A stretch of DNA of 64,000 bases from positions 62,001 through 126,000 of the forward strand of contig JANQKF010000017.1 of NCBI GenBank assembly GCA_028281285.1. Direction: 5' to 3'. The notes beneath the pieces were generated by a model that worked only from the letters and a program-made list of their open reading frames with translations, was not told the DNA's origin and did not search any database. The translations under genes were made by a program, and so were the position numbers. The DNA comes from Cyclobacteriaceae bacterium (GTDB lineage: Bacteria > Bacteroidota > Bacteroidia > Cytophagales > Cyclobacteriaceae). Below are positions 25,110-50,113 of the stretch, one piece after another (within the stretch, counting starts at the first letter, position 1; the number at the start of each line of letters is the position of its first letter).

Positions 25110-25487
25110 TTTTCCAATTCATCTCGTTGCCTTACCTCTACGAAATTCTAAGACGGAGCAAAGCAAAATTTCACATATCAGGGGAAGGGGTGTTCTGGAA
25201 AAAGTACAAAATTCCGGGTGCCAGCGAATGATTTACAACCCTCTGCTCTACAGACGGAGCAATCCCCTCTCTAGATATAAATTACCCACTAAATGAGTGA
25301 TATTCAAACATGAGAAAGGTATTGCGATACTCCATATTTCAATGCAAACGTTTGAATGAGGGTTTGAATGAGCTATTTTTTTTGTAAATTTTTTCAACTT
25401 TTTCACGCATCTCACCAACATATGCCATGAATAAAGTGTTTATTATGATTACATAAGCAAAACTCGGGATACTTAAAAACCTTAATC
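25110..25487. promoter_or_regulatory. divergent amylase/lacI intergenic region
   Basis: This 378-bp gene-free stretch contains the LacI operator at 25345-25354 and two direct copies of AGACGGAGCAA (25151-25161 and 25252-25262). Possible lacI promoters: TTTG at 25351-25354, inside the operator, 19 bp before TATTTTTT (25374-25381); or TTTG at 25363-25366, 18 bp before TAAATTTT (25385-25392). For the amylase strand I see only a weak TACCTTTC element (25314-25321). No ORF or RNA gene is supported. Confidence 0.5.
25343..25356. promoter_or_regulatory. LacI-family operator (site 1)
   Basis: TGCAAACGTTTGAA contains the perfect 10-bp palindrome CAAACGTTTG with central CG. It lies 133 bp before lacI and 235 bp before the divergent amylase. 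The same 14 bases recur before the GH31 gene, which strongly suggests that the adjacent LacI protein binds both. Confidence 0.75.
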
Positions 25488-26522: not shown

Positions 26523-26555
26523 CCACCAAAATTTCATTTTTTTTTCAAAAATCTG

Positions 26556-26569
26556 TGCAAACGTTTGAA
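26556..26569. promoter_or_regulatory. LacI-family operator (site 2)
   Basis: TGCAAACGTTTGAA, identical over 14 bases to site 1, lies 34 bp after the lacI stop codon and about 190 bp before the likely ATG of the GH31 gene. Confidence 0.75.
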
Positions 26570-26748
26570 CCACAGTACCAGTGGGGAAAATCTTCCTTTT
26601 AAGGGAAATAGAGTCCATTTTTGGTCTTTTCGTGTTTTTAATACTCCGACTTATTTCGCTATAATTAGGCCCTGTTTTGATCGGTGAAGACCAAATTTAT
26701 GCCTTCATCGACCTAAGAACTATTGTACTAAAACCAGAAGACGAATTA

Positions 26749-29154: not shown

Positions 29155-29304
29155 TATGACTGGCCTCCTCCTACTCAAAGCCAATCTTGGCAAAATTGTT
29201 GTCGCAATAGGAAAAACTTTGGGTAACGACCTTTTTCAACCACGGTACACACCAGGAATGAATGCTGACTTGGTGTTCTGTTTTCATCTCAAAACTTGTC
29301 GATT

Positions 29305-30666: not shown

Positions 30667-30674
30667 GAATCATT

Positions 30675-32186
30675 ATGGCACCAAAAAGAAGACTTTCTTT
30701 CTGGGAAATCTGGAACATGAGTATCGGTTTCCTGGGCATTCAATTCGGGTTTGCTCTACAAAACGCAAATACCAGTCGAATTTTTGAAACGCTAGGTGCA
30801 GACACCAAAAATCTGGCAATTTATTGGTTGGCAGCACCAGTAACAGGCTTAATCATTCAGCCAATTATTGGATATTACAGTGACCGTACTTGGCACCCTA
30901 AATGGGGCCGTAGAAGACCTTATTTTGCAATAGGAGCCATCTTTGCCACTATTGCCCTTTGTCTTATGCCCAATTCCTCGGCTTTATGGATGGCCGTAGG
31001 TGTGCTTTGGATAATGGATGCTTCCATCAATATTAGCATGGAGCCCTTTCGCGCTTTTGTAGGAGACATGCTCCCGGCTGAACAGCGAACCCGGGGCTTC
31101 GCTATGCAAAGCTTCTTCATTGGTATAGGAGCCATTGTGGCGTCATTTATGCCATGGATATTCGCCAACTGGTTGAACATCCCAAATACTGCACCTGAAG
31201 GAGAAATTCCTCCATCCGTGAAATACTCATTCTATTTAGGCGCTCTTATGTTCCTGGTCACTGTAATGTGGACAGTGCTTAAGACAAAAGAATATCCTCC
31301 TGAAGAATTGGTTGAAGATGGCAGTGAAGAAGGCCACGCGGAGATCACTGATATGGAAAAGGCACGTTTTATGCCGAAGTTCACCAAGGTCGGTTCGATT
31401 TTATTGGTAATAGGTGCTGCATTTTCCACTTATGTCTACTTCTCTGGAATAGATCCCCAACTCTATGTTATGGGAGGAGGCCTCGCCTTCTTTGGTATAA
31501 TGCACTTGATCGCCTATGGCCTTTTATCAAAAGATAAGAAAGGAAACGCGCTGGTACATATCGTTAAGGACTTTAATGATATGCCCAAGACTATGGTTCA
31601 ATTAGCAATAGTCCAGTTCTTTTCTTGGTTTGCATTATTCTCCATGTGGATTTATACGACCCCAGCGGTGACCTCACATATTTACAACACAACTGATACA
31701 ACCTCTGCTGACTATAACCAAGGTGCAGATCTTGTAGGAAATCTTTTCGGTATCTATAATGGAATTGCTGCACTGGCAGCATTGGCGCTTCCATGGCTCG
31801 CCAGAAAAACGAATAGAAGAATCACTCATCTCATCGCGCTTTGCCTAGGAGGTATTGGATTGATCTCTGTTTATTTCATGAGTTCGCCAGATACATTGTG
31901 GATAAGTATGATAGGAATTGGTATCGCCTGGGCGAGTATCCTTTCCATTCCATACGCAATGCTTTCAGGCTCTTTGCCTGCAGAGAAAATGGGGTACTAT
32001 ATGGGGGTTTTTAACTTCTTTATAGTTATTCCTCAAATCATAGCGGCTGCCTTGCTTGGTTTTATACTAACCACCTTCTTCAATGGCGAACCAATCTACA
32101 TTCTTGTGACTGGAGGTATATCAATGATTTTAGCCGGCTTCCTTAGTCTAATGGTAAATGATCAGGACGAGGCAATAACGACATAA
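30675..32186 (+). CDS. MFS sugar transporter, SLC45/GPH type
   Basis: An inner-membrane transporter of 503 aa with 12 hydrophobic helices. The start 'LSFWEIWNMSIGFLGIQFGF', 'GLIIQPIIGYYSDRTWHPKW' and 'GRRRPYFAIGA' match the SLC45/sucrose-type GPH symporter group, which moves disaccharides with protons or sodium. A polar central loop carries 'EYPPEELVEDGSEEGH'. Within this alpha-glucan cluster the likely substrate is maltose or short maltodextrin (inference from context). Ends with a strong bidirectional terminator. Confidence 0.92.
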   Translation: MAPKRRLSFWEIWNMSIGFLGIQFGFALQNANTSRIFETLGADTKNLAIYWLAAPVTGLIIQPIIGYYSDRTWHPKWGRRRPYFAIGAIFATIALCLMPNSSALWMAVGVLWIMDASINISMEPFRAFVGDMLPAEQRTRGFAMQSFFIGIGAIVASFMPWIFANWLNIPNTAPEGEIPPSVKYSFYLGALMFLVTVMWTVLKTKEYPPEELVEDGSEEGHAEITDMEKARFMPKFTKVGSILLVIGAAFSTYVYFSGIDPQLYVMGGGLAFFGIMHLIAYGLLSKDKKGNALVHIVKDFNDMPKTMVQLAIVQFFSWFALFSMWIYTTPAVTSHIYNTTDTTSADYNQGADLVGNLFGIYNGIAALAALALPWLARKTNRRITHLIALCLGGIGLISVYFMSSPDTLWISMIGIGIAWASILSIPYAMLSGSLPAEKMGYYMGVFNFFIVIPQIIAAALLGFILTTFFNGEPIYILVTGGISMILAGFLSLMVNDQDEAITT

Positions 32187-33447: not shown

Positions 33448-36400
33448 TTATCTTTTGATTATCAGTCTTTTAGTCACAATACCTTTGTCTCCAATCAGCC
33501 GGATCAAATAGATCCCTTGGGTATAAGAAGAGACATCCACGGTGACAGTCTCCTCACGTATTTTCACCTTTCTAAACACACGAATTCCATTGACATCATA
33601 GATGCCCATCTCAGGAGTGCTCATCCTCAGCAAAGTCAGATCAATGGTCACAAGATCACTTGTTGGATTTGGGTATGTTCTCAACAAGTCAGGAGAAAGT
33701 GTTGGAAGGTCAATTCCAGTTACAATTTCTCCTTCACCGGTGACTTCAATCACTTGCTCACCGCCATTTGAAGTAATGACAATTTGCCCTGCATACACCT
33801 CCGCATCGGCAGGTTCGAAAGTTACATTCACCACCTGAGAAGACGATGGGGCAATTTCTCCCGAGGTCCAGTCGGCAGAGTAGGTAGCAGGCAATTCAAT
33901 GGATTGAATCACAAGTGTCCCATCTCCGGAGTTTTGGATTTCGAAAGATAACTGCGAGGTCTCTCCAACTTCGACTGTACCAAAAGATAAATTCGCACTT
34001 GATGTTTCGATGATGGGTTCTGCTTGGTTTTCGATTATGATTACCAATGACTTTTCGAACGTCAGACCCTCTCTGTCCATCGTTTGCAATCGAATCAAAT
34101 ATTCGTTCTTGGTTTCAAAATCGAATTCCTCCTTGGAAACCAGGGTAGTCCCATTGATATCGAATGACCCGTTATCCGAATCCCCCTGGCCAGAAACCAG
34201 TGCAAAAGTATGCGTATCATTTCCGTCAGGATCTATTGCTGTGAGGTTTCCTACCAAAGTACCTGCCGATTGATTCTCTGGAATGGAAAGGTCATCCAAT
34301 TCAATGTCTGTTGCAGCTTCGTTGACATCGGTAATACTGATTGTGAAACTATTTTCAACACTTAATCCACCAACATCTGTAGATTTGATTCTCACCGAAT
34401 ACTGGTTTTTCTGTTCAAAGTCAAATTCAGCGTTTGAAGCCAGTTTGTTGCCACTAATCTTAAACAAGGAGTTATCCGTGTCGCCTTCGCCTGCTACCAA
34501 TTCAAAACTATGCGTGTCGTTGGCATCCGGATCAGTCACTTCAAAGCCACCTATCGTCAGTCCGTTGGCAGCATTTTCGGCAAGAGTAGCAGTCAGCAGA
34601 CTAAACGCAGTTGGCACTTCATTCACATCATTGATGGTGATCGTGAAAGTTTCTTCAAAACTCAAGCCGCCTGCATCAGTACTCTTCAAACGAATGTTGT
34701 AGGTGGATTCTGTCTCGAAATCAAATACCCAATTGGCCGTAAGATTGCTGTCAACTATCGCGAACAAAGCGTTGTCATCATCTCCTTCCCCTTCTGTGAG
34801 TTCAAAACTGAAGGTATCAGTACCGTCTTCATCAGTACTGGTGAGCGCTCCGATTGCTGTTCCCTTTGTGGTATTCTCATTTAAAGAAAGGTTGTCGAGG
34901 CTTATACTTGTTACCGCTTCATTTAGATTATTGACGCTAATGGTAAAGGCTTCTGCAAAAGCACCTTCAAAACCATCCGTGGTTTGAATGCGCACCGAAT
35001 AGCTGCTTTGCGCTTCAAAATTGACGATCTCCTTTGTCTTTAATTCACCCTCCACGATTTCGAATTTAGCATTGTCAGTATCACCAGCTCCCGCTACAAG
35101 TGCATAGGTAAACGTATTGTCTCCAACATCCTGATCGGTGCTACTTAGCACACCCACTACAGTTCCGATAATGCTGTTTTCGTCAATGTCATCACTGGTA
35201 ATGGCAATATCAGTTGGGTCATCGTTGGTATTAGTGATCTCCAAATCGAAACTATCAGATGCCTCAGCTCCTGAACCGTCCACGGCTGTGACAGTCACAT
35301 TGATTGTACCCACATCGTTATTCAATGGTGTACCGGAGAATGTTCTTGTTGAGGCATCAAAGCTCAACCAGTTGGCTTCAAAATCGGCTGAATAAGTAAG
35401 CTGATCACCATCAACATCATTAAAGGCATCTCCAGAAATCACTTTGGTAAAAGTGTCATCTTCAGCAACAGTTTCATCACTTATTGGAATCACCAATTCA
35501 GGTGCATCATTCACAGGGTCTACCTGGATATCAAAGCTCGTGAAGCTAGACTGTCCATCTGTTGATCCAATGATAAAGATGGTATCATCTCCATTAAAAT
35601 TGTCTTGTGAAGTAAGCTCTAAAGTTTGTCCATTCATCGATGCTTCGATGTTGTTGTTTCCAGAAATCACATAGGTGAAGGTGGCCGATGCATCAGCACT
35701 ATAGCTAAAGACGTTAGACAAGTCAATTGATCTTGAACCAAAATCCTCATTCAACACCAGGTCAGTGATCGGATTAGCCACAGACACCTGACCACTTGCT
35801 TCAGCAGTTATGAAAGCCACCTCCTGGCTCACCGATAGTTCCCCATCTGATGCCGTAACGGTGGCTGTTTCCAAGCCAATCACACCATCAACCGCTGTAA
35901 TGGTGAGGTTAGAACCGGAAACATTAAGAGCAACATTGGAAAGACTGGTAGTGGTGTAAGTCAAATCGCTGGATGCCGTCTCCAGATCGTTGAAATACTG
36001 GGAAAGGTCAAGTGTATAGGCAGGGAACCCTTCAACCAACGACTGTGATGGGATTGAAGTGCTCACTTCCGGTGCATCATTCACCGGATTAACAGTTAAG
36101 GTAAATACCTCTGCTTCAGAAACAGAATTAGTAGTGCCCAATCCATCATCGGCTGTAATGCTAAACTCTACTTGCCCATTAAAATTCTCGGAAGGCGTGA
36201 TTGTCAAAGTACTTCCATCAAGGGCAAATGTCACCTGATCATTGTCACTATTCGCTGCAAAATCAAATAAAGGCACATCGGCATCAACATCTGTTGCAGA
36301 CAGCAGAAGCACCAATTCATTGTCTTCATCAACTGCCTGATTACCGATTGTGGTAACCACCGGTTTATCGTTGACTGGATTTACGGTAAGTTCAAATTGT

Positions 36401-39400
36401 TCTATCTCACTGAACAAGTCTTCAGTCCCCTGCTCTGTCACGGTGACGGTAATCGTTGACGTACCGTTGAATTCTGCACCCGGAGTAATATTCAGTGTAG
36501 AGCCGTTCACTTCGACTGATACATCATCATCAGAAGATGTCGCAGTTATTATGAGCTCATTGTCCGGATCAGCAACCTCAAGTGCCACCTGCAAGGCGGT
36601 TTCTTCATCAGTTTGTTGGTCATCGATGGTTTCAAGTGTAGGTGAATCATTGATACCAACCACCTCAATCTCCGCATTACCTACTGCGGATCCATCTCGT
36701 CCGGGATGATTCACGGTAAATTCAAAATCATCTAACAAGCCAATTTCCGTATCAGATGAATAGGTCACAGTCCATTGAGCAAGGTTGTCGGACTTCTTCA
36801 CCTCCACCGGGCTGGTCAGGCTTCCATTGGACACTTCTTCAGTAATACTAATGCTGGCATCAGACAAACTGAAGGCACCAAATTCTACCGCAAATAGATT
36901 GATTTCTACACTCTCGTTTTCCGGAACGCTGGTTTGCGCTGCAAATACAAAAAACTGTCCGTCAGACGAACTGGATCCTTCCGTGTTGAGTACTTCCGCT
37001 CCAGTGCCTTGATTTGAAATGATGTAGGCTTTCGAATCTGAGAAACCGTTATCTGAAACCAGTTCTACCACCACAAAGACTTGTTCTGCACTAAATACGT
37101 AGGGGTGATCTACACTTTGGATTTCGAAATTCAAGCTCGTAGATCCATCCGTGAAAGTGAGGTTTTCCTTTTTATGATTGGATGAAACAGCTGTAATGTA
37201 TTGGGCATTAGTGATGTCGCTCAGGTCGTAATATTCCAATTTGAAATCATAGGATTCATTGACGACTGCGTCTTCAAAATTCAACGTCAAGCCAAGCGCT
37301 GAAGCGTCTTCAGAAATCACTTCCAGATTAGTGATCGTATGCTGTGTATCTCTGACACGGAATTTGAATCGATGCGTACCTACATCAGACTCAAGGCCTG
37401 ATTCGGTCTCCACAACCTTGAACTTGATGGCATCTTCATACACTGTACCTGGCGTTAGGTTGTTTGCAGTGAAGGTATACGTGCCTGGCTGTGCACCGGC
37501 CGTCAATGTTCCATTGGCGGGAGACTCCACGATTTCGTATTTGATTTCATCGCCATCAGGATCAAAGCCCCAAAGTCTGATCAATCTATCTCTACGCATG
37601 AACACTGGCCTTTGCGGACTAACAGCTATTGGCTTTCTATTTCTGACTCCACGGCCACCGGTGTCAATTTTCCTTTGCCCTGCATTGGATGTAATAGTCA
37701 ATTGACCAGCATAAACTTTCTCATCAACCGGTGTAAACGTAACCGTGACTGTCTTCTTTTCCCCTTCAGGAATTGACAGCTCCGATTGATCCACCGTGAA
37801 TCCCTCAGGTGCTTCTATTTTGGAGATTTCAACATTTCCGTCACTTCCTGTATTTGATAATTCTATGGTTCTTGTGCGAGTTTGTCCAATTCTGGTTCCC
37901 TGAAATGCCAAATGCCGAGTTCCATCGGTTGGGTCATCGGGGCGTGGCAAGAAGATGCTCATTGCCGGTTCGGCCTGGTTAAGCACAACAATGGTCTTGA
38001 TGTCGTCTCTGGACATCCCTCTCGCATCCGTTGTTCGTACTCGAATTGAAAGCGAATTTTTTGTTTCAAAGTCGAAGGTCGCTTTAGCAAATAGTTTATT
38101 ACCTATGATTCTGAATGCGGCATTATCGGTACTTCCCTCGCCTTGAACCAATTTGAAAGAATGCTGGTCCTCAAAATCCGAATCAGTCGCTGTAAATTCT
38201 CCTATGAAAGTCCCCGGAGGTAAGTTTTCTGCTAACTCATTATTACTCAGCGTATTTTCAGCAGGAGCCACATTCGTGGCTTCTACCACTCGCTTGAAAA
38301 TCTCAGAATCTTCATTCTGATTTCCGGACTCATCAGTGAGCATACCTTCCTTAATTTGAAGGGTAAGTTCACCATCTTCCCTGGCGCTCGCCATTACACT
38401 AAATGCTTTCCCCGAACCTTTGAAATCTGACAATTCCGCATTCTTGGCGGTGATATCTGCTATATCAAACCCAACCACCGGTTCGTCAAAAATGAAGTTC
38501 ACCTTGAATTCGTTTTTGAATACCAATGGGCTTGTCGGACTGATAATCTGAACCACCGGAGCAGTTAAGTCTACTGTTCTGAAATTCCAGGTCTCTTTAT
38601 TATCGATCCCTGGGAAATTGTTGGTGCCATCAGTGAAGGCAGTATTCGGAATTTTGACGAAGATTTCTCTTTTCTCAGGCAAGTCAACATTCGGGTTTAT
38701 AGTGACAGTCTTATCAGAAACAGTCACCTCAGAACCTGTGACATCAACGGCCATGAGCTCGGTACCAGTTTGGCTATCATTCAAGGTGATTTTACCTGTG
38801 CCTGCCTGAATAGATTCATCAAACGTGAACTCAAGATTGTTTCCTACCGGAACATTGTTAGTTCCATTTTGGGGATTGAACGCAATGATTTTCGGAATGC
38901 TGATATCATTTACCGTAATGGTAAATGCTTGCTCGGTGGTTCCACCTAGTCCATCATCGGCTAACAGTACAACATCGTGAAGTCCCAATTGATCTTTCGA
39001 GTTTCCAGTTATACTAAAATCGAAAGCAACCTTTCTGATTCGACTGGTTAAGTATGGGATAACAAACACATTTCCAGTGCGATCCACTTCAACAACTGCC
39101 GGGTTAACAAATAAGGCTTGATCAATGGGGCCATCCTGAGTACCACTTTGTGACCCTACTAATGTTGAAACAAGTCCGTCAGTCGTAACTTTTCGAATTC
39201 GGTTATTCCCCCAATCAGCTACTAGGAGGTTTCCATTTGCATCGACATCAAGCCCAATCGGGAAGTTGAAACTCGCTTGGTTGCCGGAACCTTCACTATA
39301 CCCTCCGCCTTGTATACCTGCAAGCGTTGTCACTTGGCCAGAAGGTGTCACCTTTCTAATCAAATGATTAAATGCATCAGCAACGTAAATGTTGCCGTCC

Positions 39401-42400
39401 TGCCCAATGACCAGGTCCCAAATTGAGTTGAAACTGGCTTCGGTGCCTTGACCGTCCTGTGATCCGGAAGCAGATGATCCAGCCAAGGTAGTGACCACAC
39501 CATCGGGAGTAATTTTTCTGATGGTCTGTTGACTTGCATTTTCAGCTGCATAGATATTCCCTTCTTTGTCAATTGTTAGAGCATATAAGCCATTAAATTG
39601 CGCTTCCGCACCTTTCCCATCCACAAAACCACTTGTTGCTGAACCGGCCAGAGTCGAAACATCACCTGCTTGAGTAATTTTTCTTATTCTTGTGCGATCA
39701 GTGACGTAAACATTGTCGTGGGCATCGACTGCAATTCCTGAAATGGAACTGAACTGCGCTTCACTAGCCTTTCCATCCACAGAGCCTTGCTGGCCACTTC
39801 CAGCAAAGGTACTAACCACTCCACCAGGGGTAATTTTTCTTATTCTTTTATTACCGTTGTCAGTAATATACATGTTGTTGAAGCTGTCGAAGGCGATATG
39901 ACCTGGACCATCAATTTGGGCCGTTTCAATGGGGCCATCCTGATAACCTGTTGCATTATTCAGAAATGTACTTACGCCAGGACTATTCACTCTTAGCCAA
40001 CTCGGAAGAACAGGAGCAGTAAAGGTAATAGCATCGCCATTTTCGTCTGTCGCTCTGACAGAATACAGATAGTCTTTACCTTCATCTACAGAGATAATCG
40101 GCTCTGTGGAGAATTTAGGAGCTGTGTTTTCAGAGATATTATATTTTTCGTTTTTGCCTTCAGGAAGGAGGTTTGCAAGCACATTATCCCCAAAATCAAC
40201 AATGTCTTTTCCTGACTTAAGTTCCAATCCCAACAAACCGGAGCCTTTGAGATTGATGACTTCAACCAGATAGTAACCATCACCTGCAGGTGCCTCAACC
40301 CTATTCACTATCCCCGTTACATCTCCTGTAAGGTTAAAATCAGCCCGTTCAATGTTTTTCAAACGTTCTGAAAACTCAACCAGAAAAGTGACTTTGCTGG
40401 TTCTCACATTTTCATCACGAGGCTGATGACGAGTGATATTCAAGAATTGAGGGGCTATCTGGTCAGTGACTGTAATTTCAAAATCCTGAATTGCAGAACC
40501 CCCAAAACCATCCTTTGCCTCTAATTTAACTTGAAACTTTCCTGACTCATTTCCCGGGTTGCCCTTAAGTACAGGATACAAATTCAGCCTTTTGATGTTA
40601 TCATATCGACTATCCGAGATATATAACATCCCTTGCGGGCCCATTACTATTCCTCTTGGATCAAGGAATAGGCTTGGTTCACCATTCAACTCCTCAGGTC
40701 GTTTACCTGCTAAAGTGGTTACTTCAAACGAGGGAGAAATCTTCTTTATCTTCAAACTCCCTCTTCTTTCGACTATATATAAGTTACCAAACTCATCCGC
40801 AATTATGCTGGAAGGCCCAGCCAGTTTTGCTCCGGTACCAACTCCATCCAAATCACCTTCTTCTGACCCAACAATCGTAGTGACTTCAGCATTTGGTGTA
40901 ATCTTTTTGATTTTATCAGCTCCGTGATCGGCTAGTAAAATGTTGTCCTCAGCATCAATTATAAAATCATAAGACAACCCAATTTTTGCCCCAATTCCTA
41001 TACCATCCAAATCACCATTTTCACCCGATCCAGCAAATGTGCTCACCGTACCATCTGAAGCTAGTTTCCGAATTCTAAAGTTGAATGCATCCATGATAAA
41101 GAGGTTGCCTTTAGAATCGAACTGTACTTTACTTGGTCTATAAAACTGCGCTTCGGCTGCATTTCCATCCAAATACCCTTGAGTACCAGAGCCGGCCACC
41201 AATGTAACTTCCCCGGAAGGCGAAATCTTTTTGATTTTATGATTGAAATAGTCAGCAACGTATAAGTTATCATCCTTATCAAATGTCAACCCGTAAGGCC
41301 CATTAAATTTGACTGTCTCTAATGTTCCAATTTCGTCTCCCACTACCGATCCGGCAAAGTCTGTTACCAAGCCATTAACATCTATTTTCTTGATCTTATG
41401 ATTATTTATTTCGCTTATATAAAGGTTGCCCTTGCTATCATATGCCATTCCTCTCGGTCCGTCAAATTGAGCCTGTAGTCTTTTGCCAGATAGATCACCC
41501 TGAATTGAGCCAGCAAACACCTCAACCGAATTGACCGGACTAAGGAATAACCAACTAGGTATCTCAATGCCTGTGATACTAGCTAAGTCACTGTCCGAAT
41601 CTTCCGTGGTAATTGCATAACAATAATCCTTATTGACAGAGATGTCTATATCCGGATTGGAGGTGAACCTTGGATTGGAATTAACTATCGAAAATGCTTC
41701 CTCATTTTGAGGAGTAATATCTACTAGGACATTACCAGCCAGATCTTTGATATCTTGCGACTCCGAAAGGCTAAGGTTCAATACACCTGTGGTATTGATT
41801 TGAGAGATTTTCACCTTGTATTCTCCTTTCGCTTCCAGCTTTTCAACTGAAGAAACGATACCATTTGCTCCGCCTGATTCAATTATGAAGTCATTCGGGT
41901 CAATATTCACCCCATCTTCGCTGAGTGTGACCTTGAAGCTCACCATAGCAGCATGAGCATTTTCAGAGAGTGGTTCCAATCGTTCGATAGAAATGACTTC
42001 GGGGCTAGATGCATCTACATGGATTGTAAAAGATTGTTCAGCTAAACCTCCTTTTCCATCAGAGACTTGTAGCTTCACCAAATGATCGCCCTCAGTTCCT
42101 CCTGAATTACCTTTTAGTGTAACCGAAGAGGTTATTTTTCTGATACGGAAGTTTCCATTGTCAGCAATTATCAATTCACCACCACTGGTATAAAATATCC
42201 CAGTAGGATAATTGAACTTTGCACTCAATGCTTCACCATCTGCATAATCTATATCTCCAGTTCCAGCGAATGTCCTAACGGAACCATCGCTTCCCACTTT
42301 TCTAATGGCTGCGTTTCCTTGTTCGGAGACATATAGATTACCATCATAACCAAAAGCCAAATCCAATGGTCCGGAAAATTTAGATTCTAGTGCGCTTCCA

Positions 42401-45400
42401 TTTTTAAAACCAGCTATGCCATTACCACTGAATGATGTCACTACACCATCCTTAGTCACTTTTCTTATTCGATGATTGTCATAGTCTGCTACAAAAATAT
42501 TTCCACAGATATCAACAGTAAGTCCAATAGGATTTGAAAATTTAGCCTCAGCTCCTACACCATCGATATAACCTCTGGTGCTACCTGCAATGGTAATTAC
42601 ATCAAAGTTTGGCGTAATCTTGCGTATAACGTGTAGGCCATCCGATTTACTGTTATCTACATCGGTCACATAAACATTGCCTTCTTTGTCCACTGCAATG
42701 TCAAGCGGATTGAAAAATTTGGCGTGCAGTCCGAAGCCATCAACTATAGCTGCTTCTCCTTTGCCCCCAGCATAAGACATGACCTGCCCTTCGGGGGTAA
42801 TCAGCCTTATGGTTGCAGCATATTTTGATGACCCCGAGTAGTAGCCATTATCAGCAACGTAAAGATTGTCTTTATCATCAATTGCCAGAGCATATGGAAA
42901 GCTAAAAGTCGCTGCCCTTCCAAAGTCGTCCTTTGATCCCACCTGACCTTGACTTCCAGCAAAGGTGCTGACTATTCCATCAGGAGTTATTTTTCTTATT
43001 ACCCGGGCGAGCGCGTCAGCGACAAAGATATTTCCTTTGGAGTCCATAACTGCATCCTGAGCCTGCTGGAATGCAGCCTCAGCCGCACTACCATCCTTAA
43101 AAGTACCACTTCCATTTCCCGCCACTGTTGTGACCTGCACTTTCTGTTCAAGAGTCAACCAAGATGGTAGTTGGAGTGAAGAGACCTCCAATTCATTGGG
43201 ATCGGGATCAGTAACTTCAATATCGTATTGATAATCCATGTTCAACCCTAGTGCTATGGGTGGCTGAGAACTGAATATAGGATCAGAATTTATCAGATTA
43301 TATGTCTCATAAACACCTGTTGGTGTATGATTTGAAAGACGATTACCTCCTAAATCTTCGATATCCGTTCCTCCCTGAATCTCCAGTTTAACCAACCCAA
43401 TGTCACTTGTTAATGCTACATCCACGTCATACGTCAGTCCTTCGACTCGTTCAGTAACTGCCATAATTCGATCCGAAATTCCGTTCACTCGAACCAGAAA
43501 GTCACCCAGACCTACATTCCTCACTTTTTCGCTGAATTCAACTCGGAACGTTAAGAGTGCACAGTTTGTATTTTCAGTCAATGGACTAAATCGTTTAATA
43601 TTAGTTATGCGAGGTGCAAAAACGTCTTTTACAGTAAGAGTGTAACTTTGACGTGTATTTGTAAACTCTTCATTGGCCACTGAGTAGAAATTATCAAATA
43701 CCTCCAGTGTGATCTCGTGGTCACCTGTTTTTCCCGCAGGATCACCTGACAATTCAAACTCTCCGGCCGAAACTTTCGCTATCCTACCTTGGGTTACTTG
43801 GGTGATGAAAAAATTTCCATGTGGGTCCTGGGTAATGCCATGTGGACTAACAACCCTAGCCTCCAATGGATTCTTTGCGCTCAATGAGAGTCCACCTGCT
43901 CCGGTCCCAGCGAAGTCTGAAACCTGACCCGAACTATCTATCTGACGAACAAGGTTGTTGGATCGATCAGCAACATAAAGAACACCATTAGATCCAAAGT
44001 GTAAGCCAGCAACGGAGGTGAACGAAGCATTGTTTGCACTACCATTGACTCTACCTTGAGCACCACTACCAGCGAATGTTGTCACGACACCTGCAGGTGT
44101 TACTCTTCTGATTCTATAATTGCCTTCATCAGCTACATAGAGATTGTCATCTGCATCAAGTGCAAGTCCCGTTGGTCTTGAAAATGAAGCCGCTGATCCT
44201 GTGCCGTCCACATATCCAGGACTTCCTGATCCAGCTAGCGTAGTAACGGTTCCATCATTGGCAATCTTCCTGATGGAGTGACTGCCAGTTTCAGAAATGT
44301 ATATCGTGCCGTCAGAAGCAATTGCAATTCCGTAGGGAAAATGAAATGAAACTGCAAGCCCATTACCATCAACTGAAGACGCTGAACCCGATCCGGCAAT
44401 TGTGGTTACCAGACCATCAGGTGTTATCTTTCTAATAATGTTATTTGAGAGGTCTGGAACGATGATATTTCCATCACCATCCAGATCAATGAACACTGGT
44501 GAATTAAACGAAGCTGCAGTTCCTTGACCATCCGCGTTTCCAGCAGTTCCTGATCCTGCGAATGTTGTGACTTGACCGTCAGGTGCAATCTTCCGAATTG
44601 CATGATTGTTAAAGTCAACGATGAAGAGGTTCCCACTTTGATCTGCCTTAACATCCATGGGTTGATTAAATGAGGCTTGATCTTTAAGACCATTTAGAAA
44701 ACCAGAACTCCCACTGCCTGCAAACTGAGTAAAATAACCTGGAGAGTCTCCTGATGTAGAAAGCCAATCGGGAAGATTGATTCCTCTGAAATTCAGCGGA
44801 TCACCATCTGGGTCAGAAACTTTAAGCCTATAAAGATATTGCTCATCTTCATTAACCATTAATACCGGTGAAGACTCAATTTTAGGTGCCTGATTTTCAA
44901 TAATGAAATTTTCTTCTGGCATAATCGGCAATAGGTTTTCCAATGGATTTCCTGACATATCCGTGATGTCGCTGGAATTGAGAAAATCGAGATCGACAAG
45001 ACCTTCGCTGACACCATTTAATGTAATATCAAATGTTTGATCATCGATTTTCACTAACCCTGAAACTCTTCCCTGAACTCCTGATGGGTTGAACCCAATA
45101 TCATCAGTGCCCAAGTTTTGAATTCTTTTATTGAAGGTGACTCTAAATCGAGCATCAGGATTGTGAATTTTTTGAGTCGTAGAATTTGCGCGTAAGATGC
45201 TTTTCACCCGAAGTTCTACTCTGTTGACCAAAATTGTAAAAGTCTGGCATGCACTGTTCCCTGAGCCATCTTCAGTCAACAATTGTACTTCATAATTTCC
45301 AGATTTACCTTCTGGGCTACCTTGTAAAAAGAATCCTCCATTTGCTATTTTTCTGACTCTACCTGAGCCGTATTCGCTAACGAGTAGGTTACCTGTATAA

Positions 45401-48400
45401 TCTTTTGATATTCCGTATGGATAGTTGAATGCAGCCTCATTTAAATCACCATCCTTGGCCTCTCCATTCCCTGTACCAGAAAACGTGGTTACATCACCGG
45501 TCAGACTAATTTCTCTGATGAGATGGTTGCTGAAATCAGCCACAAAAAGCGATTGGCGATCTAATACTATTTCTGTAGGTCCGTTGAAGGAAGCTGAGGC
45601 ACCATTACCATCCTGACTACCGATTGTTCCAGAACCTGCAAGTGTAGTCACTGTGCCATCGGATTCAATTTTTCTAATCTTGTTGTTTCCACTATCAACC
45701 ACATAGACATTTCCACCGTTGTCAACTGCAAGCCCTTGAGGTCGATTGAACGATGCTGCTTTTCCGACTCCTTCAACAGATCCCGAATTTCCAGAACCTG
45801 CAACAGTCGAAATTGAACCGTTGGACGCAATTCTGCGAATGGCATGATTGCCATGTTCACTCACCAATAAGTTTCCTGCATTATCAAAAGCCATTGCATA
45901 AGGCAGATTCAACGTAGCTACATCCTTGTCTCCATCATCGAAACCTGGAACTCCTATTCCCGCAAAGGTGGATACTACACCATCAGGTGTTATTTTTCGT
46001 ATTCGGTGATTTTCAGAATCGGCAACAAACACATTGTCTTCGTTATCGATTACTATGGCGATTGGCCAATTTAATTTAGCTTCTCTTCCGGCTCCATCAC
46101 GATATCCTGCATGTCCAACCCCTGCAAAAGTTGTCACCTCTCCATGTAAAGAGATTTTTCTAATCTGATGTCCAAATGATTCAGCAACATAGATATTCCC
46201 TTTGCTATCTTCAGCCACGTTTGTGAGAGCTGTAAAAGTCACGGTTTCAACACTTCCATCTCTTGATGATCCATAGGTGGAACCAGCAATTGTGGATACT
46301 TCACCTTGATTTTCCCTTATAATCTTAAGCCAGTCGGGTAAAACAGTTGCACTGACATTCAGATTTTGATCATCAGAGGTCTGAATTTGATATGAATAGT
46401 ATTCATTGTCATTAATTTGGACAAGTGGTGTTGAAGTAAAAAATGGTAACTGACTTGCACTCTGGTCAACAACAGTGATGAAAATGGTTTGTTTGGTAAA
46501 ATTGAAATTATCACTCGCTCTAATTTCAATCTCATAAACATTATCATTGTTTTTATCTTGAGGGTTAGCAACTGTTGGAATTGACAAAAACGTGACCACA
46601 CCCGTTATCTCCCCTATTTTGAAAAAGTTAGCATCTGCACCTCCTGTAATGGCATAAGAAATTGGATTATCGTCCGTGGCCTTTGCCTTATAAGCATCAG
46701 CAGTACTATTTTCAACAAAGTTGATGTTGGCTGGTGAAGTAAATACAGGAGCATCTTCATCAACATCTGTGACTGTGATAGTCACTAATTGTGAGATTTG
46801 CTGACCACCACCAGAAGCAACAATATTTATTTCATATTTATTATCTCCATTAAGATCTTCAGGTGACTCAAAATCAGGACTTGATTTAAAAAGTATTTCC
46901 CCATTTGTCCCATCTATTGTGAACAAATTATTGTCATTTGAATTCCCGAGTGAATACGTAAACGAAGTGAGTGGATAATGAGCTATAGCCTGATGCACAG
47001 TGCCTTCCTTATTTTCTTCATAGAAAACTTCGTTCGTTGATCCAAAGGAAGGTGCAGATGCTGTGGATCTGTATATAGTATAGGTTAAATTTTCATCAAG
47101 TTCTCCCCCGCGACCATCTTCTGCTCTGAATTCAGCACGGAATTGCCCTGTCGATTGAGGTGCTGTTCCTTCTAAAGCATACATAGGCAATATGACTTCT
47201 CTTATGGTATGATTCTTACTATCAACCAGATAAAAGCCGGAGAGCGTACTTGCAAGACCAATTGGACCATTGATCTTGGCTTGACTCCACTCACCATCAA
47301 CAAAACCTTGATTCGTTTCTAATAGTGTTGTTGTGATTCCTGTGCGCAGAATATGTTTTCGAATTCTATTTGCACCCGTTTCAACAATGTACAAATCATC
47401 TCTTCTATCAAAAAGAATTTCAGTTGGTGAACTCAACGTCCCATTAAGGCCATCATCAGAGCCTGCACTACCATTGCCAATAACTGTGGTCACATTTCCA
47501 ACCATATCAATTTTTCTAATGGCATGATTGGATTGATCTACTACATAAAGTGTCTCTGTAGGTCTATGAAACCCTAATGCCACAGGATTATTGAAACTTG
47601 CTGAAGAACCATTACCATTTGTGAATCCTGCCGTACCTGATCCAGCCAAGGTTGTCACAACACCATCTTTGCTAATTTTCCGAATGACATTATTCCCCGC
47701 ATCTGCTACATAAACATTCAATTTATTGTCTACAGCAACATTTACTGGTGAGTTGAATGATGCATTTGTTCCTACTCCATTTGTCGCGCCAGGAGTTCCT
47801 GTCCCGGCAAATGTGGTAACTACCCCAGTCGCACTCACCTTTCTTATTACATGGTTATCACGATCAGCAACATATAATGAACCTTCATAGTCCACGTCTA
47901 ATCCCATTGGATGATTAAATGAAGCAAAATTTATGGAGCCATTCTCAAACCCTTTTTGCCCGGCACCAGTATATGTTGTCACTTCTCCTTGAGTAGAAAC
48001 CTTACGAATTCGGTGTTTTTCTGGTTCAGAAACGAACCAACCATCATTGGTCGTTGCTATATACTGCGGTATTGAAAATGATGCATTACCCCCTATTCTG
48101 TCATCTCTACCTTCATTACCTGATCCAACATACGTCTTCAGACTTCCTGGAATTTGATTTAATGCCACCCATGACGGTATGTTAATTGGTGAAATTGAAA
48201 CTTCATCTTTATCAGGATCAGCAAACTGCAATGGCGAAAAAATTTCTTCACCTTGAACGTATCTCCCTACTGGCTTTGAAACTTGAAATGGAGCATCATT
48301 CTCATCAGTAATCGAAATGTTTACTTCCCGATTGGTTTCAATGGAACCATCATTCGCACGAACTTCAATCTTATAGACATTGTTGCGATCAGCATCGTCA

Positions 48401-49971
48401 GGATATTCGAAATTCCTTTCAGACTTCAAGCTTACTTCGCCAGTATTTTCGTTTACGTCAAAATAATCTTCATCATGCTTATTACCCAAACTATAAGAAA
48501 TAGCTGTTGAAGAAGAACCAGTAGTGGTGATGGTATATACCAGCCCTTTTTCATTCTCTTTAAAACTGACTTCTGCCGAGGAAGAAATCGAAAATGTGGC
48601 CTTAGCAACTGAAAAGAAACTCTCATGACCCTCTACCTGATCATCTGTTTGATCTGCATCTGAATCATATGCCGTAATCGCGTATTCAGTAGAGATGTCT
48701 CCTCCAGCCACCGTATATGAAGTAACATTTCCAAGGTCTATAGAAGTTGCATAAGAATACCCTGTTGGTGTTCCGTAATGTAATCTATAACCTGCCACAT
48801 CGGATTCTGCGTTAGCTGACCAGTTTAACAAAACACCAGAACCGGATGTAGTTTTTGTAACATCAGATGGCGGAGAAATTGGAGCTGTAGTATTTAAAGA
48901 AGTTAAAAATGGCGTGTAATCTACTTCATCCAGTTGAAAATCATCTGTTTGATCATATATCGCTGATTGAATTTCAGATTCAATTGTTGTACCCCAATAA
49001 TTGTTTTCAGCAGAAACAACACTAACAGAAAAGTCATCCAACCTGGTTGAAAGTCTATATTTATATTGACTTCCACCTAAAAGATTATTGCCTGTAACAT
49101 TCCCCACATGCCCAACTATATGATCTCCAGCACTGATTTTATATGTGTTGTTAATAAAATCTATATATGTTCCTTGCTGAAATTTTGAAATGTTGGTGTT
49201 GATGTAATTATTTTTAATCACATATTTTGTTCCAGCACCATAACTTTGAGGATAAAATCTACTAATGGTACAATCATTAAAAATGTTGTATTCCATATGA
49301 CATGAAGTTATACTAAAGGCAACTTCATGAAATATGTTCTTCCTGAGTATTGTGTTAGATTCGTTATCTGCACTTATTTCTCCTCTAACAAAAACATTAT
49401 TTTCAACTATAGTAGTCTCATTCACATTTGATCCCCCCCATCCGTTGAATACTATATTAACATCCTCTAAATGAGAATTAGAAAGCAAAATAGAAACCTG
49501 ATTGTTTGAAGCACCGGAATTATACTCGTGGGTGTTAACTAAATGACTGCTCGAATGTCCTCCAGACATTACAGGGTCAAAACTACCTGATGTTGGGTTC
49601 TTAATAATAGCATGCTTGATTCTATTCCCACTGTCATCACTGGGATTATAATCAACTGCACTGTCATCAAAATGTATACCTCTTCCAAATGGATCAAATG
49701 TAATTTTTTTAGCATCTGTCCCGACTGCCACTAAGGTGCCATCAACTTTAATAAAAGTATCATTATCCAATTGAATTCGGACACCAGGCTCAATAGTCAA
49801 AGTAACATTGCTAGAAACTAGGATATTTCCAGAAAGAAGGTAAGGGCTATTAGCCAAAGTCCATGTTTCATCCGATGAAATAACTCCAGATACACTAGTT
49901 TGAGTATAACTTAGTTGACAAGTAAATAGGACAAAAACTCCTGCGAATAGAGCAAGTATTCGATTTAGCAT
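33448..49971 (-). CDS. giant T9SS-secreted multidomain NHL/cadherin/Ig protein
   Basis: One open frame of about 5,507 aa. Start at 49971 ('MLNRILALFAGVFVLFTC') gives a clean signal peptide; an ATG at 50013 adds 14 residues. In order: right-handed beta-helix (about 25-360); fibronectin III (370-450); cadherin-like; six six-bladed NHL propellers at about 610-927, 1215-1544, 1735-2070, 2272-2615, 2807-3132 and 3324-3650, each blade with a 'TTFAGSG..G..DG' and 'YVAD..NH.IRKI' pattern and each nested in a CADG-type domain; SbsA-like and other Ig domains (3690-3900); a choice-of-anchor D domain (about 4000-4110); about five Ig/cadherin-like repeats (4440-4930); four cadherins (4920-5320); a second anchor-D domain (5320-5410); and a T9SS type A domain ending 'VTKRLIIKR'. 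Probably a surface adhesin or scaffold; its ligand is unknown. Confidence 0.93.
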   Translation of the reverse strand: MLNRILALFAGVFVLFTCQLSYTQTSVSGVISSDETWTLANSPYLLSGNILVSSNVTLTIEPGVRIQLDNDTFIKVDGTLVAVGTDAKKITFDPFGRGIHFDDSAVDYNPSDDSGNRIKHAIIKNPTSGSFDPVMSGGHSSSHLVNTHEYNSGASNNQVSILLSNSHLEDVNIVFNGWGGSNVNETTIVENNVFVRGEISADNESNTILRKNIFHEVAFSITSCHMEYNIFNDCTISRFYPQSYGAGTKYVIKNNYINTNISKFQQGTYIDFINNTYKISAGDHIVGHVGNVTGNNLLGGSQYKYRLSTRLDDFSVSVVSAENNYWGTTIESEIQSAIYDQTDDFQLDEVDYTPFLTSLNTTAPISPPSDVTKTTSGSGVLLNWSANAESDVAGYRLHYGTPTGYSYATSIDLGNVTSYTVAGGDISTEYAITAYDSDADQTDDQVEGHESFFSVAKATFSISSSAEVSFKENEKGLVYTITTTGSSSTAISYSLGNKHDEDYFDVNENTGEVSLKSERNFEYPDDADRNNVYKIEVRANDGSIETNREVNISITDENDAPFQVSKPVGRYVQGEEIFSPLQFADPDKDEVSISPINIPSWVALNQIPGSLKTYVGSGNEGRDDRIGGNASFSIPQYIATTNDGWFVSEPEKHRIRKVSTQGEVTTYTGAGQKGFENGSINFASFNHPMGLDVDYEGSLYVADRDNHVIRKVSATGVVTTFAGTGTPGATNGVGTNASFNSPVNVAVDNKLNVYVADAGNNVIRKISKDGVVTTLAGSGTAGFTNGNGSSASFNNPVALGFHRPTETLYVVDQSNHAIRKIDMVGNVTTVIGNGSAGSDDGLNGTLSSPTEILFDRRDDLYIVETGANRIRKHILRTGITTTLLETNQGFVDGEWSQAKINGPIGLASTLSGFYLVDSKNHTIREVILPMYALEGTAPQSTGQFRAEFRAEDGRGGELDENLTYTIYRSTASAPSFGSTNEVFYEENKEGTVHQAIAHYPLTSFTYSLGNSNDNNLFTIDGTNGEILFKSSPDFESPEDLNGDNKYEINIVASGGGQQISQLVTITVTDVDEDAPVFTSPANINFVENSTADAYKAKATDDNPISYAITGGADANFFKIGEITGVVTFLSIPTVANPQDKNNDNVYEIEIRASDNFNFTKQTIFITVVDQSASQLPFFTSTPLVQINDNEYYSYQIQTSDDQNLNVSATVLPDWLKIIRENQGEVSTIAGSTYGSSRDGSVETVTFTALTNVAEDSKGNIYVAESFGHQIRKISLHGEVTTFAGVGHAGYRDGAGREAKLNWPIAIVIDNEDNVFVADSENHRIRKITPDGVVSTFAGIGVPGFDDGDKDVATLNLPYAMAFDNAGNLLVSEHGNHAIRRIASNGSISTVAGSGNSGSVEGVGKAASFNRPQGLAVDNGGNVYVVDSGNNKIRKIESDGTVTTLAGSGTIGSQDGNGASASFNGPTEIVLDRQSLFVADFSNHLIREISLTGDVTTFSGTGNGEAKDGDLNEAAFNYPYGISKDYTGNLLVSEYGSGRVRKIANGGFFLQGSPEGKSGNYEVQLLTEDGSGNSACQTFTILVNRVELRVKSILRANSTTQKIHNPDARFRVTFNKRIQNLGTDDIGFNPSGVQGRVSGLVKIDDQTFDITLNGVSEGLVDLDFLNSSDITDMSGNPLENLLPIMPEENFIIENQAPKIESSPVLMVNEDEQYLYRLKVSDPDGDPLNFRGINLPDWLSTSGDSPGYFTQFAGSGSSGFLNGLKDQASFNQPMDVKADQSGNLFIVDFNNHAIRKIAPDGQVTTFAGSGTAGNADGQGTAASFNSPVFIDLDGDGNIIVPDLSNNIIRKITPDGLVTTIAGSGSASSVDGNGLAVSFHFPYGIAIASDGTIYISETGSHSIRKIANDGTVTTLAGSGSPGYVDGTGSAASFSRPTGLALDADDNLYVADEGNYRIRRVTPAGVVTTFAGSGAQGRVNGSANNASFTSVAGLHFGSNGVLYVADRSNNLVRQIDSSGQVSDFAGTGAGGLSLSAKNPLEARVVSPHGITQDPHGNFFITQVTQGRIAKVSAGEFELSGDPAGKTGDHEITLEVFDNFYSVANEEFTNTRQSYTLTVKDVFAPRITNIKRFSPLTENTNCALLTFRVEFSEKVRNVGLGDFLVRVNGISDRIMAVTERVEGLTYDVDVALTSDIGLVKLEIQGGTDIEDLGGNRLSNHTPTGVYETYNLINSDPIFSSQPPIALGLNMDYQYDIEVTDPDPNELEVSSLQLPSWLTLEQKVQVTTVAGNGSGTFKDGSAAEAAFQQAQDAVMDSKGNIFVADALARVIRKITPDGIVSTFAGSQGQVGSKDDFGRAATFSFPYALAIDDKDNLYVADNGYYSGSSKYAATIRLITPEGQVMSYAGGKGEAAIVDGFGLHAKFFNPLDIAVDKEGNVYVTDVDNSKSDGLHVIRKITPNFDVITIAGSTRGYIDGVGAEAKFSNPIGLTVDICGNIFVADYDNHRIRKVTKDGVVTSFSGNGIAGFKNGSALESKFSGPLDLAFGYDGNLYVSEQGNAAIRKVGSDGSVRTFAGTGDIDYADGEALSAKFNYPTGIFYTSGGELIIADNGNFRIRKITSSVTLKGNSGGTEGDHLVKLQVSDGKGGLAEQSFTIHVDASSPEVISIERLEPLSENAHAAMVSFKVTLSEDGVNIDPNDFIIESGGANGIVSSVEKLEAKGEYKVKISQINTTGVLNLSLSESQDIKDLAGNVLVDITPQNEEAFSIVNSNPRFTSNPDIDISVNKDYCYAITTEDSDSDLASITGIEIPSWLFLSPVNSVEVFAGSIQGDLSGKRLQAQFDGPRGMAYDSKGNLYISEINNHKIKKIDVNGLVTDFAGSVVGDEIGTLETVKFNGPYGLTFDKDDNLYVADYFNHKIKKISPSGEVTLVAGSGTQGYLDGNAAEAQFYRPSKVQFDSKGNLFIMDAFNFRIRKLASDGTVSTFAGSGENGDLDGIGIGAKIGLSYDFIIDAEDNILLADHGADKIKKITPNAEVTTIVGSEEGDLDGVGTGAKLAGPSSIIADEFGNLYIVERRGSLKIKKISPSFEVTTLAGKRPEELNGEPSLFLDPRGIVMGPQGMLYISDSRYDNIKRLNLYPVLKGNPGNESGKFQVKLEAKDGFGGSAIQDFEITVTDQIAPQFLNITRHQPRDENVRTSKVTFLVEFSERLKNIERADFNLTGDVTGIVNRVEAPAGDGYYLVEVINLKGSGLLGLELKSGKDIVDFGDNVLANLLPEGKNEKYNISENTAPKFSTEPIISVDEGKDYLYSVRATDENGDAITFTAPVLPSWLRVNSPGVSTFLNNATGYQDGPIETAQIDGPGHIAFDSFNNMYITDNGNKRIRKITPGGVVSTFAGSGQQGSVDGKASEAQFSSISGIAVDAHDNVYVTDRTRIRKITQAGDVSTLAGSATSGFVDGKGAEAQFNGLYALTIDKEGNIYAAENASQQTIRKITPDGVVTTLAGSSASGSQDGQGTEASFNSIWDLVIGQDGNIYVADAFNHLIRKVTPSGQVTTLAGIQGGGYSEGSGNQASFNFPIGLDVDANGNLLVADWGNNRIRKVTTDGLVSTLVGSQSGTQDGPIDQALFVNPAVVEVDRTGNVFVIPYLTSRIRKVAFDFSITGNSKDQLGLHDVVLLADDGLGGTTEQAFTITVNDISIPKIIAFNPQNGTNNVPVGNNLEFTFDESIQAGTGKITLNDSQTGTELMAVDVTGSEVTVSDKTVTINPNVDLPEKREIFVKIPNTAFTDGTNNFPGIDNKETWNFRTVDLTAPVVQIISPTSPLVFKNEFKVNFIFDEPVVGFDIADITAKNAELSDFKGSGKAFSVMASAREDGELTLQIKEGMLTDESGNQNEDSEIFKRVVEATNVAPAENTLSNNELAENLPPGTFIGEFTATDSDFEDQHSFKLVQGEGSTDNAAFRIIGNKLFAKATFDFETKNSLSIRVRTTDARGMSRDDIKTIVVLNQAEPAMSIFLPRPDDPTDGTRHLAFQGTRIGQTRTRTIELSNTGSDGNVEISKIEAPEGFTVDQSELSIPEGEKKTVTVTFTPVDEKVYAGQLTITSNAGQRKIDTGGRGVRNRKPIAVSPQRPVFMRRDRLIRLWGFDPDGDEIKYEIVESPANGTLTAGAQPGTYTFTANNLTPGTVYEDAIKFKVVETESGLESDVGTHRFKFRVRDTQHTITNLEVISEDASALGLTLNFEDAVVNESYDFKLEYYDLSDITNAQYITAVSSNHKKENLTFTDGSTSLNFEIQSVDHPYVFSAEQVFVVVELVSDNGFSDSKAYIISNQGTGAEVLNTEGSSSSDGQFFVFAAQTSVPENESVEINLFAVEFGAFSLSDASISITEEVSNGSLTSPVEVKKSDNLAQWTVTYSSDTEIGLLDDFEFTVNHPGRDGSAVGNAEIEVVGINDSPTLETIDDQQTDEETALQVALEVADPDNELIITATSSDDDVSVEVNGSTLNITPGAEFNGTSTITVTVTEQGTEDLFSEIEQFELTVNPVNDKPVVTTIGNQAVDEDNELVLLLSATDVDADVPLFDFAANSDNDQVTFALDGSTLTITPSENFNGQVEFSITADDGLGTTNSVSEAEVFTLTVNPVNDAPEVSTSIPSQSLVEGFPAYTLDLSQYFNDLETASSDLTYTTTSLSNVALNVSGSNLTITAVDGVIGLETATVTASDGELSVSQEVAFITAEASGQVSVANPITDLVLNEDFGSRSIDLSNVFSYSADASATFTYVISGNNNIEASMNGQTLELTSQDNFNGDDTIFIIGSTDGQSSFTSFDIQVDPVNDAPELVIPISDETVAEDDTFTKVISGDAFNDVDGDQLTYSADFEANWLSFDASTRTFSGTPLNNDVGTINVTVTAVDGSGAEASDSFDLEITNTNDDPTDIAITSDDIDENSIIGTVVGVLSSTDQDVGDNTFTYALVAGAGDTDNAKFEIVEGELKTKEIVNFEAQSSYSVRIQTTDGFEGAFAEAFTISVNNLNEAVTSISLDNLSLNENTTKGTAIGALTSTDEDGTDTFSFELTEGEGDDDNALFAIVDSNLTANWVFDFETESTYNIRLKSTDAGGLSFEETFTITINDVNEVPTAFSLLTATLAENAANGLTIGGFEVTDPDANDTHSFELVAGEGDTDNSLFKISGNKLASNAEFDFEQKNQYSVRIKSTDVGGLSVENSFTISITDVNEAATDIELDDLSIPENQSAGTLVGNLTAIDPDGNDTHTFALVSGQGDSDNGSFDINGTTLVSKEEFDFETKNEYLIRLQTMDREGLTFEKSLVIIIENQAEPIIETSSANLSFGTVEVGETSQLSFEIQNSGDGTLVIQSIELPATYSADWTSGEIAPSSSQVVNVTFEPADAEVYAGQIVITSNGGEQVIEVTGEGEIVTGIDLPTLSPDLLRTYPNPTSDLVTIDLTLLRMSTPEMGIYDVNGIRVFRKVKIREETVTVDVSSYTQGIYLIRLIGDKGIVTKRLIIKR

Positions 49972-50113
49972 ATTGAGGTATCTAGGTAGTACAGTAAACA
50001 TAAGAATATTCACCGAACGGAATCAGCCCATAATACTTTTTAATAGAAAAATAATGATAGACGGTAGTCATAAACAAAAAGCTCCAAACTCAACTGATTA
50101 GAAGGCTTTTACA

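Follow-up and report, generated by a model that had tools for sequence, protein, structure and literature searches.

Six-bladed NHL propellers nested within Ig-like domains of a giant, putatively type IX-secreted protein of a Cyclobacteriaceae bacterium

A 64,000-nucleotide stretch of the genome of a Cyclobacteriaceae bacterium (assembly GCA_028281285.1, contig JANQKF010000017.1, positions 62,001 to 126,000; hereafter the window) carries on its reverse strand a single giant open reading frame (ORF; 33448-50013; 5521 amino acids (aa) from a GTG codon), in which six NHL beta-propellers occur among immunoglobulin (Ig)-like domains. The locus raises the question of whether these propellers simply lie between neighbouring Ig-like domains or are each inserted into one of them, as had been proposed from the sequence without database searches (the sequence-only reading), and what such an arrangement might serve. 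An ATG at 49971 corresponds to residue 15 of the ORF (5507 aa counted from that ATG) and, as judged by eye, is the point at which a signal-peptide-like stretch starts.

Comparison with Pfam revealed NHL repeats, cadherin, Big_9, Big_5, Big_12, He_PIG and HYDIN-type Ig domains in the giant ORF, together with a C-terminal Por_Secre_tail sorting domain (33457-33675, reverse strand like all features of this protein; aa 5447-5519, E 1.4e-11). The NHL blade motif scored far above the Pfam cut-off; the protein was scanned in two parts, which gave 9.3e-82 and 1.1e-33.

Each of the six propellers is preceded by a P-x-W-[L/V] signature (at aa 612, 1225, 1747, 2282, 2818 and 3336), and the host Ig-like domain picks up again, 321-341 residues later as counted between the host halves, at aa 944, 1561, 2086, 2631, 3147 and 3666 in units 1-6, respectively. 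Unit 1 occupies 47065-48297 (aa 573-983), with the propeller insert at 47185-48156 (aa 620-943); unit 2, 45223-46449 (aa 1189-1597), insert 45334-46317 (aa 1233-1560); unit 3, 43624-44889 (aa 1709-2130), insert 43759-44751 (aa 1755-2085); unit 4, 42013-43284 (aa 2244-2667), insert 42124-43146 (aa 2290-2630); unit 5, 40462-41676 (aa 2780-3184), insert 40576-41538 (aa 2826-3146); and unit 6, 38905-40122 (aa 3298-3703), insert 39019-39984 (aa 3344-3665). The inserts were delimited by eye and by profile alignment, and those of units 3 and 6 also by AlphaFold. As judged by eye, each starts with a single outer strand, continues with five full blades and ends in a blade without its outer strand.

Profile alignment filled all six blades in every unit of the window and in all 61 units collected from this and related genomes (the latter pre-selected for few gaps). 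It replaced an earlier count by regular expression, which gave 3-6 blades per window unit and misses diverged blades. The size of the graft (about 320-340 residues) and the number of blades given by the sequence-only reading agree with these measurements. The 'LPSWL' or 'LPDWL' signature that it described has to be widened, because units 1 and 5 read IPSWV and IPSWL; the DG.GG motif ascribed to the end of the host is missing from unit 3, where the host loop is longer.

When the propeller was deleted in silico, the joined flanks of all six units matched Pfam He_PIG, four of them above the cut-off (E 3.7e-7, 8.8e-6, 3.5e-7 and 8.9e-9 for units 2, 4, 5 and 6) and two below it (7.4e-4 for unit 1 and 2.1e-4 for unit 3). 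Among four host halves scanned singly against Pfam, the two N-terminal ones gave E 0.21 and 7.2e-4, both below the cut-off, and the two C-terminal ones gave no He_PIG match; since none of the four reached the cut-off alone, automated domain annotation can hide the nesting. An internal control is provided by an uninterrupted He_PIG copy in the same protein (35233-35493; aa 4841-4927), which was detected by Pfam and also by a profile of empty domains (47.4 bits). It carries the short turn WLSFDASTRTFSG, as had been expected of ordinary CADG domains.

The position of the junction was examined with a control profile (84 positions) of uninterrupted domains, comprising 17 of 30 continuous domains, each longer than 78 residues, from other genomes and none from this protein. 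Within the intact protein, the N-terminal halves of units 2-6 end at profile positions 45-53 and the C-terminal halves begin at 44-48; in unit 1 the N-terminal half alone appeared (positions 20-47). In all six units the score of the joined host peaked at the proposed junction (29.8, 58.5, 53.7, 59.5, 62.2 and 74.8 bits for units 1-6) relative to 24 cuts shifted by 5-60 residues, and exceeded every shuffle made for that unit (100 of the C-terminal and 100 of the N-terminal half). A profile of the six joined hosts and three continuous domains matched 17 PDB sequences up to E 0.1, among them endofucoidanase, a serine-rich platelet adhesin, collagenases, dystroglycan and an IgA Fc receptor. It is well supported that each of the six units is one Ig domain of the He_PIG/CADG type, interrupted at the same hairpin by a six-bladed NHL propeller; on this point, as on the reality of the ORF, the first interpretation stands.

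AlphaFold was run on units 6 and 3 with an alignment of the six window units, and the models were evaluated as strand lists. The mean predicted local distance difference test (pLDDT) and predicted template modelling (pTM) scores were 92.4 and 0.85 for unit 6, and 89.7 and 0.81 for unit 3, the unit that had been singled out beforehand for such a check; the low-confidence stretch of the latter (residues 401-409) is its long host loop. In both models the host has four strands of at least three residues before the insert and three after it, which add up to seven predicted host strands. The insert of unit 6 is predicted to form 24 strands (1 + 5 × 4 + 3) and that of unit 3 forms 23 of at least three residues, the 24th being two residues long, so that six four-stranded blades with closure are predicted in both. 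Neither flanks folding as separate domains nor blade strands swapped from the flanks, the two outcomes that would have spoken against nesting, appeared in these models.

A Foldseek search of the PDB with the unit gave 1311 matches, and the best 50 were all NHL-type propeller proteins, led by the teneurin-like protein 9ifo (template modelling score 0.71 by query) and followed by SOQ1, NHLRC2 and TRIM71. The unit profile matched 74 PDB sequences; all 60 that were shown had their best stretch within the propeller (positions 61-365 of 409).

Further nested units, as well as the empty form of the host, were found in other proteins. The genome of the window contains 16 nested units in four proteins: six in the giant protein, five in L001 (3992 aa), four in L006 (3822 aa) and one in L007 (2061 aa). 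When a profile built from these 16 units (A1; matches starting at position 10 or before and ending at 409 or beyond were taken as full-length) was searched against the 19 genomes of the genus, 15 had matches at E<=1e-30 and at least 13 had full-length ones. Few candidates were scored per genome, and all counts for relatives are lower bounds. At most seven were scored in each of 245 genomes of the family, where at least six (G088, G107, G211, G271, G111 and G235), from four other genera, contained full-length units, and at most six in each of 291 genomes of the order, which added one further family among the matches listed (G301). In the class (295 genomes, at most six candidates each, E<=1e-55) no full-length unit outside the order was among the matches listed, and none of 34 named loci from a genome-contig scan had both halves of this host.

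Single proteins of relatives hold as many as ten nested units (L080, G009:C102, 5935 aa); others hold seven (L084, G007:C28, 4057 aa), six (L081, G007:C3) or three (L085, G015:C251). In L080, L081 and L085 some units are spaced by merely 1-5 residues. At 8.6 and 8.2 Mb, G007 and G009 exceed all other genomes of the genus set in size.

In the case of L079, from the same genus, one protein combines two occupied copies with two continuous ones (aa 852-934 and 1044-1128), which score 91 and 92 bits with a host profile made from the split domains; one of them reads PDWLTLS-AEN-VLSGS at the site where the occupied copies hold the propeller. A protein of another genus of the family (L089) has one empty copy beside two occupied ones. 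Other empty copies occur in the genus. Of 30 continuous matches listed, one, L015, was dropped from the tree described below, as it proved to be the C-terminal half of a nested unit with a propeller ahead of it. The nesting is not unique to the window protein: relatives carry it many times, together with the empty host domain.

The genome of the window encodes 37 matches to Por_Secre_tail, 34 of them over the cut-off, and SprA (SprA_N), which was the sole part of the type IX secretion system (T9SS) machinery searched for. The giant protein has the C-terminal domain that, with a T9SS in the same genome, characterizes type A cargo, and the combination of Por_Secre_tail and SprA makes its display on the cell surface likely. 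Cargo of this type is described as anchored to anionic lipopolysaccharide (PMC9143113).

We propose that the protein would be exported via T9SS and anchored through its C-terminal domain of type A, and would form a long cell-surface stalk of Ig- and cadherin-like domains. On the evidence of sequence, homologues and predicted structure, the chain of each split unit leaves the Ig fold at the hairpin that follows the P-x-W-L strand, builds a complete six-bladed NHL propeller whose own first and last strands close it (1+3 velcro), and then completes the Ig fold. Since the two ends of a velcro-closed propeller lie next to each other in one blade, such a propeller could take the place of a hairpin turn and leave the stalk intact. 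The six propellers would then jut out sideways as a multivalent row of discs that may bind glycans, matrix or other cells, and tension along the stalk would be carried by the host Ig domains, bypassing the propellers. The most variable blade residues might cause the units to differ in what they bind. Across the 61 units (the full-length ones kept from 93 aligned matches, in 17 proteins) the highest entropies occur at blade positions -20 and -5 counted from the IRK motif (3.74 and 3.72 bits), compared with 0.3-1.6 bits at the motif positions. We take positions -20 and -5 to lie around the funnel on one face of the propeller. They may hint at differing ligands, as weak evidence for binding. The reading as a whole, i.e. 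split Ig units in a T9SS-exported surface stalk that bears side-mounted binding discs, is the one we favour with some confidence.

If the propellers were merely placed between Ig domains, the flanks of each would derive from two different domains. Such placement does occur in a relative from the class, L092 (G770:C58, 3858 aa), in which the three inspected of four NHL propeller regions sit, as judged by eye, between PKD-like Ig repeats. In the window protein it is very improbable, because the joined flanks make up one He_PIG domain in all six units, the continuous-domain profile sets both halves at consecutive positions in units 2-6, the seven Ig strands are split 4+3 in both folded units, and empty copies are continuous in nature. 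The propellers might also be enzymes of a lyase- or lactonase-like kind carried on a surface scaffold, as some six-bladed propellers are enzymes and the Vgb_lyase and SGL profiles do match those studied here (9.2e-30 and 3.0e-13). The NHL score is far higher (9.3e-82), however, and since the three profiles describe similar blades, their overlap would be expected; we consider catalysis unlikely.

Somewhat less unlikely, yet still improbable, is that the propellers act as bulk or spacing elements which stiffen, shield or lengthen the stalk and have no specific ligands. The retention of empty copies in the same array in L079 would fit such a role, as would the mean variability of the propeller, which does not exceed that of the host; the conservation of six blades in every collected unit, with two positions per blade standing out as most variable, argues weakly against it.

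Several points weigh against the favoured reading of a surface stalk with nested binding discs. With regard to the architecture, which draws on sequence, homologues and predicted structure, two of the six joined hosts lie under the Pfam cut-off, as given above; the domains of the control profile were found via a profile of joined split hosts, so that their choice was not independent, their continuity being natural; and the AlphaFold models cover two of six units from a six-row alignment, with Ig strands counted irrespective of pairing and of propeller orientation. With regard to binding, which is inferred, other blade positions are nearly as variable as the two highlighted ones (-22, 3.54 bits; +18, 3.50 bits; +17, 3.40 bits), and mean variability is 2.14 bits in the propeller and 2.16 bits in the host. 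Binding by the propellers and expression of the giant protein are presumed, and the nine neighbouring genes scanned have metabolic or transport functions (aldolase, sugar transporter, amylases, GH31, peptidase, amidohydrolase, TauE exporter and MacB/FtsX permease) and are silent on adhesion. Finally, the nearest neighbour by host was also the nearest by propeller in just 16 of the 61 units.

This last figure bears on how the units arose. Host and propeller identities are correlated over the 61 units (r 0.72; none of 2000 permutations gave a value as high), as expected if whole units were duplicated; the low agreement of nearest neighbours indicates that more than simple co-duplication was involved. 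Two adjacent units of L086 have hosts that are 75% alike and propellers that are 44% alike, which, together with the 16 of 61, suggests occasional exchange of propellers. The idea that a propeller is always inherited with its host is, on the same two observations, right only in part.

In a host tree of the 61 split and 29 continuous hosts (87 columns; 44 of 87 inner branches open), the state changes between nested and empty at least eight times, and the starred branches force at least two of these changes. Judging from these comparisons, the units appear to be modules copied for the most part as complete units, and the propeller appears to have been gained or lost at least twice, in a tree that is poorly resolved.

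Other insertions of NHL propellers differ from the one seen in the window (type A). In L093/L147, from another genus of the family, and in Coprobacter secundus (L029), propellers occur in a different He_PIG loop, before a W-S-x-S-P-x-L-P-like strand (type B; forward strand, L147:1984-4731 and L029:5917-7158, flanks assigned by eye). Two of three joined flanks of this type matched He_PIG (2.8e-10 and 1.6e-7); the remaining one had no match to any Pfam family at E values up to 1. Whole-length matches to a type B profile were found in at least three genomes of the class (G703, G617 and G745).

In another family of the order, the proteins L094 (G295:C26) and L095 (G394:C30) hold propellers inside an Ig_7-like repeat, 'GGPTTFC..GGSVTL|YLWSN' (type C). 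Of the six propellers of L094, the two inspected are matched by continuous copies within that protein, with 57 and 73% identity over the junction; the continuous copy shown for L095 lies in L094 (55% identity). The joined hosts (two scanned of three made) and one continuous copy matched Ig_7 below the cut-off. Full-length matches of this type occurred in three of 241 genomes of the order among the matches listed (G295, G394 and G372). The Ig_7-like nesting seems to have arisen by a separate insertion into another Ig family, the independence of the three types being judged from their different hosts and loops and not from a tree. A propeller tree (14 type A, 14 single and 1 type C) showed no grouping, with 17 of 26 inner branches open and all type B rows lost to the 85% fill filter.

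By eye, 16 of 17 further loci with a propeller and flanks were not nested, and the nested one, L147, is the same as L093; these 17 came from 20 fetched regions, two of which had propeller matches too short for the filter. In these relatives, single NHL propellers generally lack such nesting. An automatic empty-site test was positive for 119 of 145 propellers (145 of 179 had enough flank), but it cannot alone separate nested from inter-domain propellers, as L092 passes it, and alignments were judged by eye instead. In L031 (SBHC01000081.1), from a metagenome-assembled genome of Deltaproteobacteria, a protein of 4120 aa has seven NHL regions separated by cysteine-rich repeats.

A broader generalization, which we put forward tentatively and consider rather less probable than the reading of the window protein, is that NHL propellers serve surface proteins of Bacteroidota as plug-in modules. 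Since their two ends come together in a single closed blade, they would have entered various hairpins of various Ig stalk domains on several independent occasions (He_PIG after P-x-W-L, He_PIG before W-S-x-S-P-x-L-P, and Ig_7-like) and been gained, lost or exchanged within arrays, so that one stalk could carry a changing set of side-mounted binding discs.

The six-bladed NHL fold of the units is shared with NHLRC2, SOQ1, TRIM71 and teneurin-like propellers (6gc1, 7djj, 7qrx and 9ifo); 9ifo is both the best structural and the best sequence match among the PDB entries shown, and in the sequence matches shown the best stretch falls in the propeller. In teneurins an FN-plug, the NHL propeller and a YD-shell are described as arranged one after another (PMC13018210). 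The giant ORF does not show an FN-plug and YD/RHS shell around NHL: no RHS/YD family was among the Pfam matches shown for it (all 11 of the first part and the best 25 of 33 of the second), nor was any RTX family, for which no targeted search was made. The host profile, in turn, matches the He_PIG/CADG Ig domains of endofucoidanase (6dms), the serine-rich platelet adhesin (4m00) and alpha-dystroglycan (9c3c), from which the window hosts differ in being interrupted by the propeller.

PorZ combines propellers with an Ig-like end, and Bap1 and RbmC of Vibrio cholerae reportedly have a beta-prism inserted into the propeller. PorZ, a T9SS surface protein of Bacteroidota (PMC5121618), is a component of the secretion system and not a repeat stalk. 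In Bap1/RbmC a velcro-closed propeller is part of a biofilm adhesin; it has eight blades, and an Ig host is not mentioned in the excerpted text of that report (PMC10102183). BapP of Pseudoalteromonas tunicata is described as a surface adhesin with a beta-propeller and Ig/cadherin-like repeats, but its single propeller is five-bladed, N-terminal and not nested, and type I secretion is suggested as possible (PMC12153261).

Keyword searches of the open-access literature (titles and the beginnings of abstracts) gave no description of NHL propellers nested in Ig domains, and no such nesting was seen among the PDB matches shown (the best 50 of 1311 structural and 60 of 74 sequence matches). The claim of the sequence-only reading that no family with this repeated nesting has been described is uncontradicted by these searches, with the amendment that the arrangement also occurs in other proteins of relatives. 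Domain insertion and propeller adhesins are already known; the repeated nesting seems to be the new part.

The arrangement seems to be a general means of mounting binding modules laterally on a stalk. Its design rule would be that a beta-hairpin can take up a velcro-closed propeller as an almost ideal insert, allowing lateral display on an Ig fibre without breaking the fibre. If true, this would explain how giant Bacteroidota proteins secreted by the type IX system come to have numerous binding sites, would make proteins automatically annotated as 'NHL' or 'Ig' readable, and could provide a template for engineered multivalent scaffolds.

Beside the giant gene, the region 22284-32186 of the window contains genes for starch or maltose use, encoding an amylase with a Por_Secre_tail, a GH31 protein, an alpha-amylase and a major facilitator superfamily (MFS) transporter.
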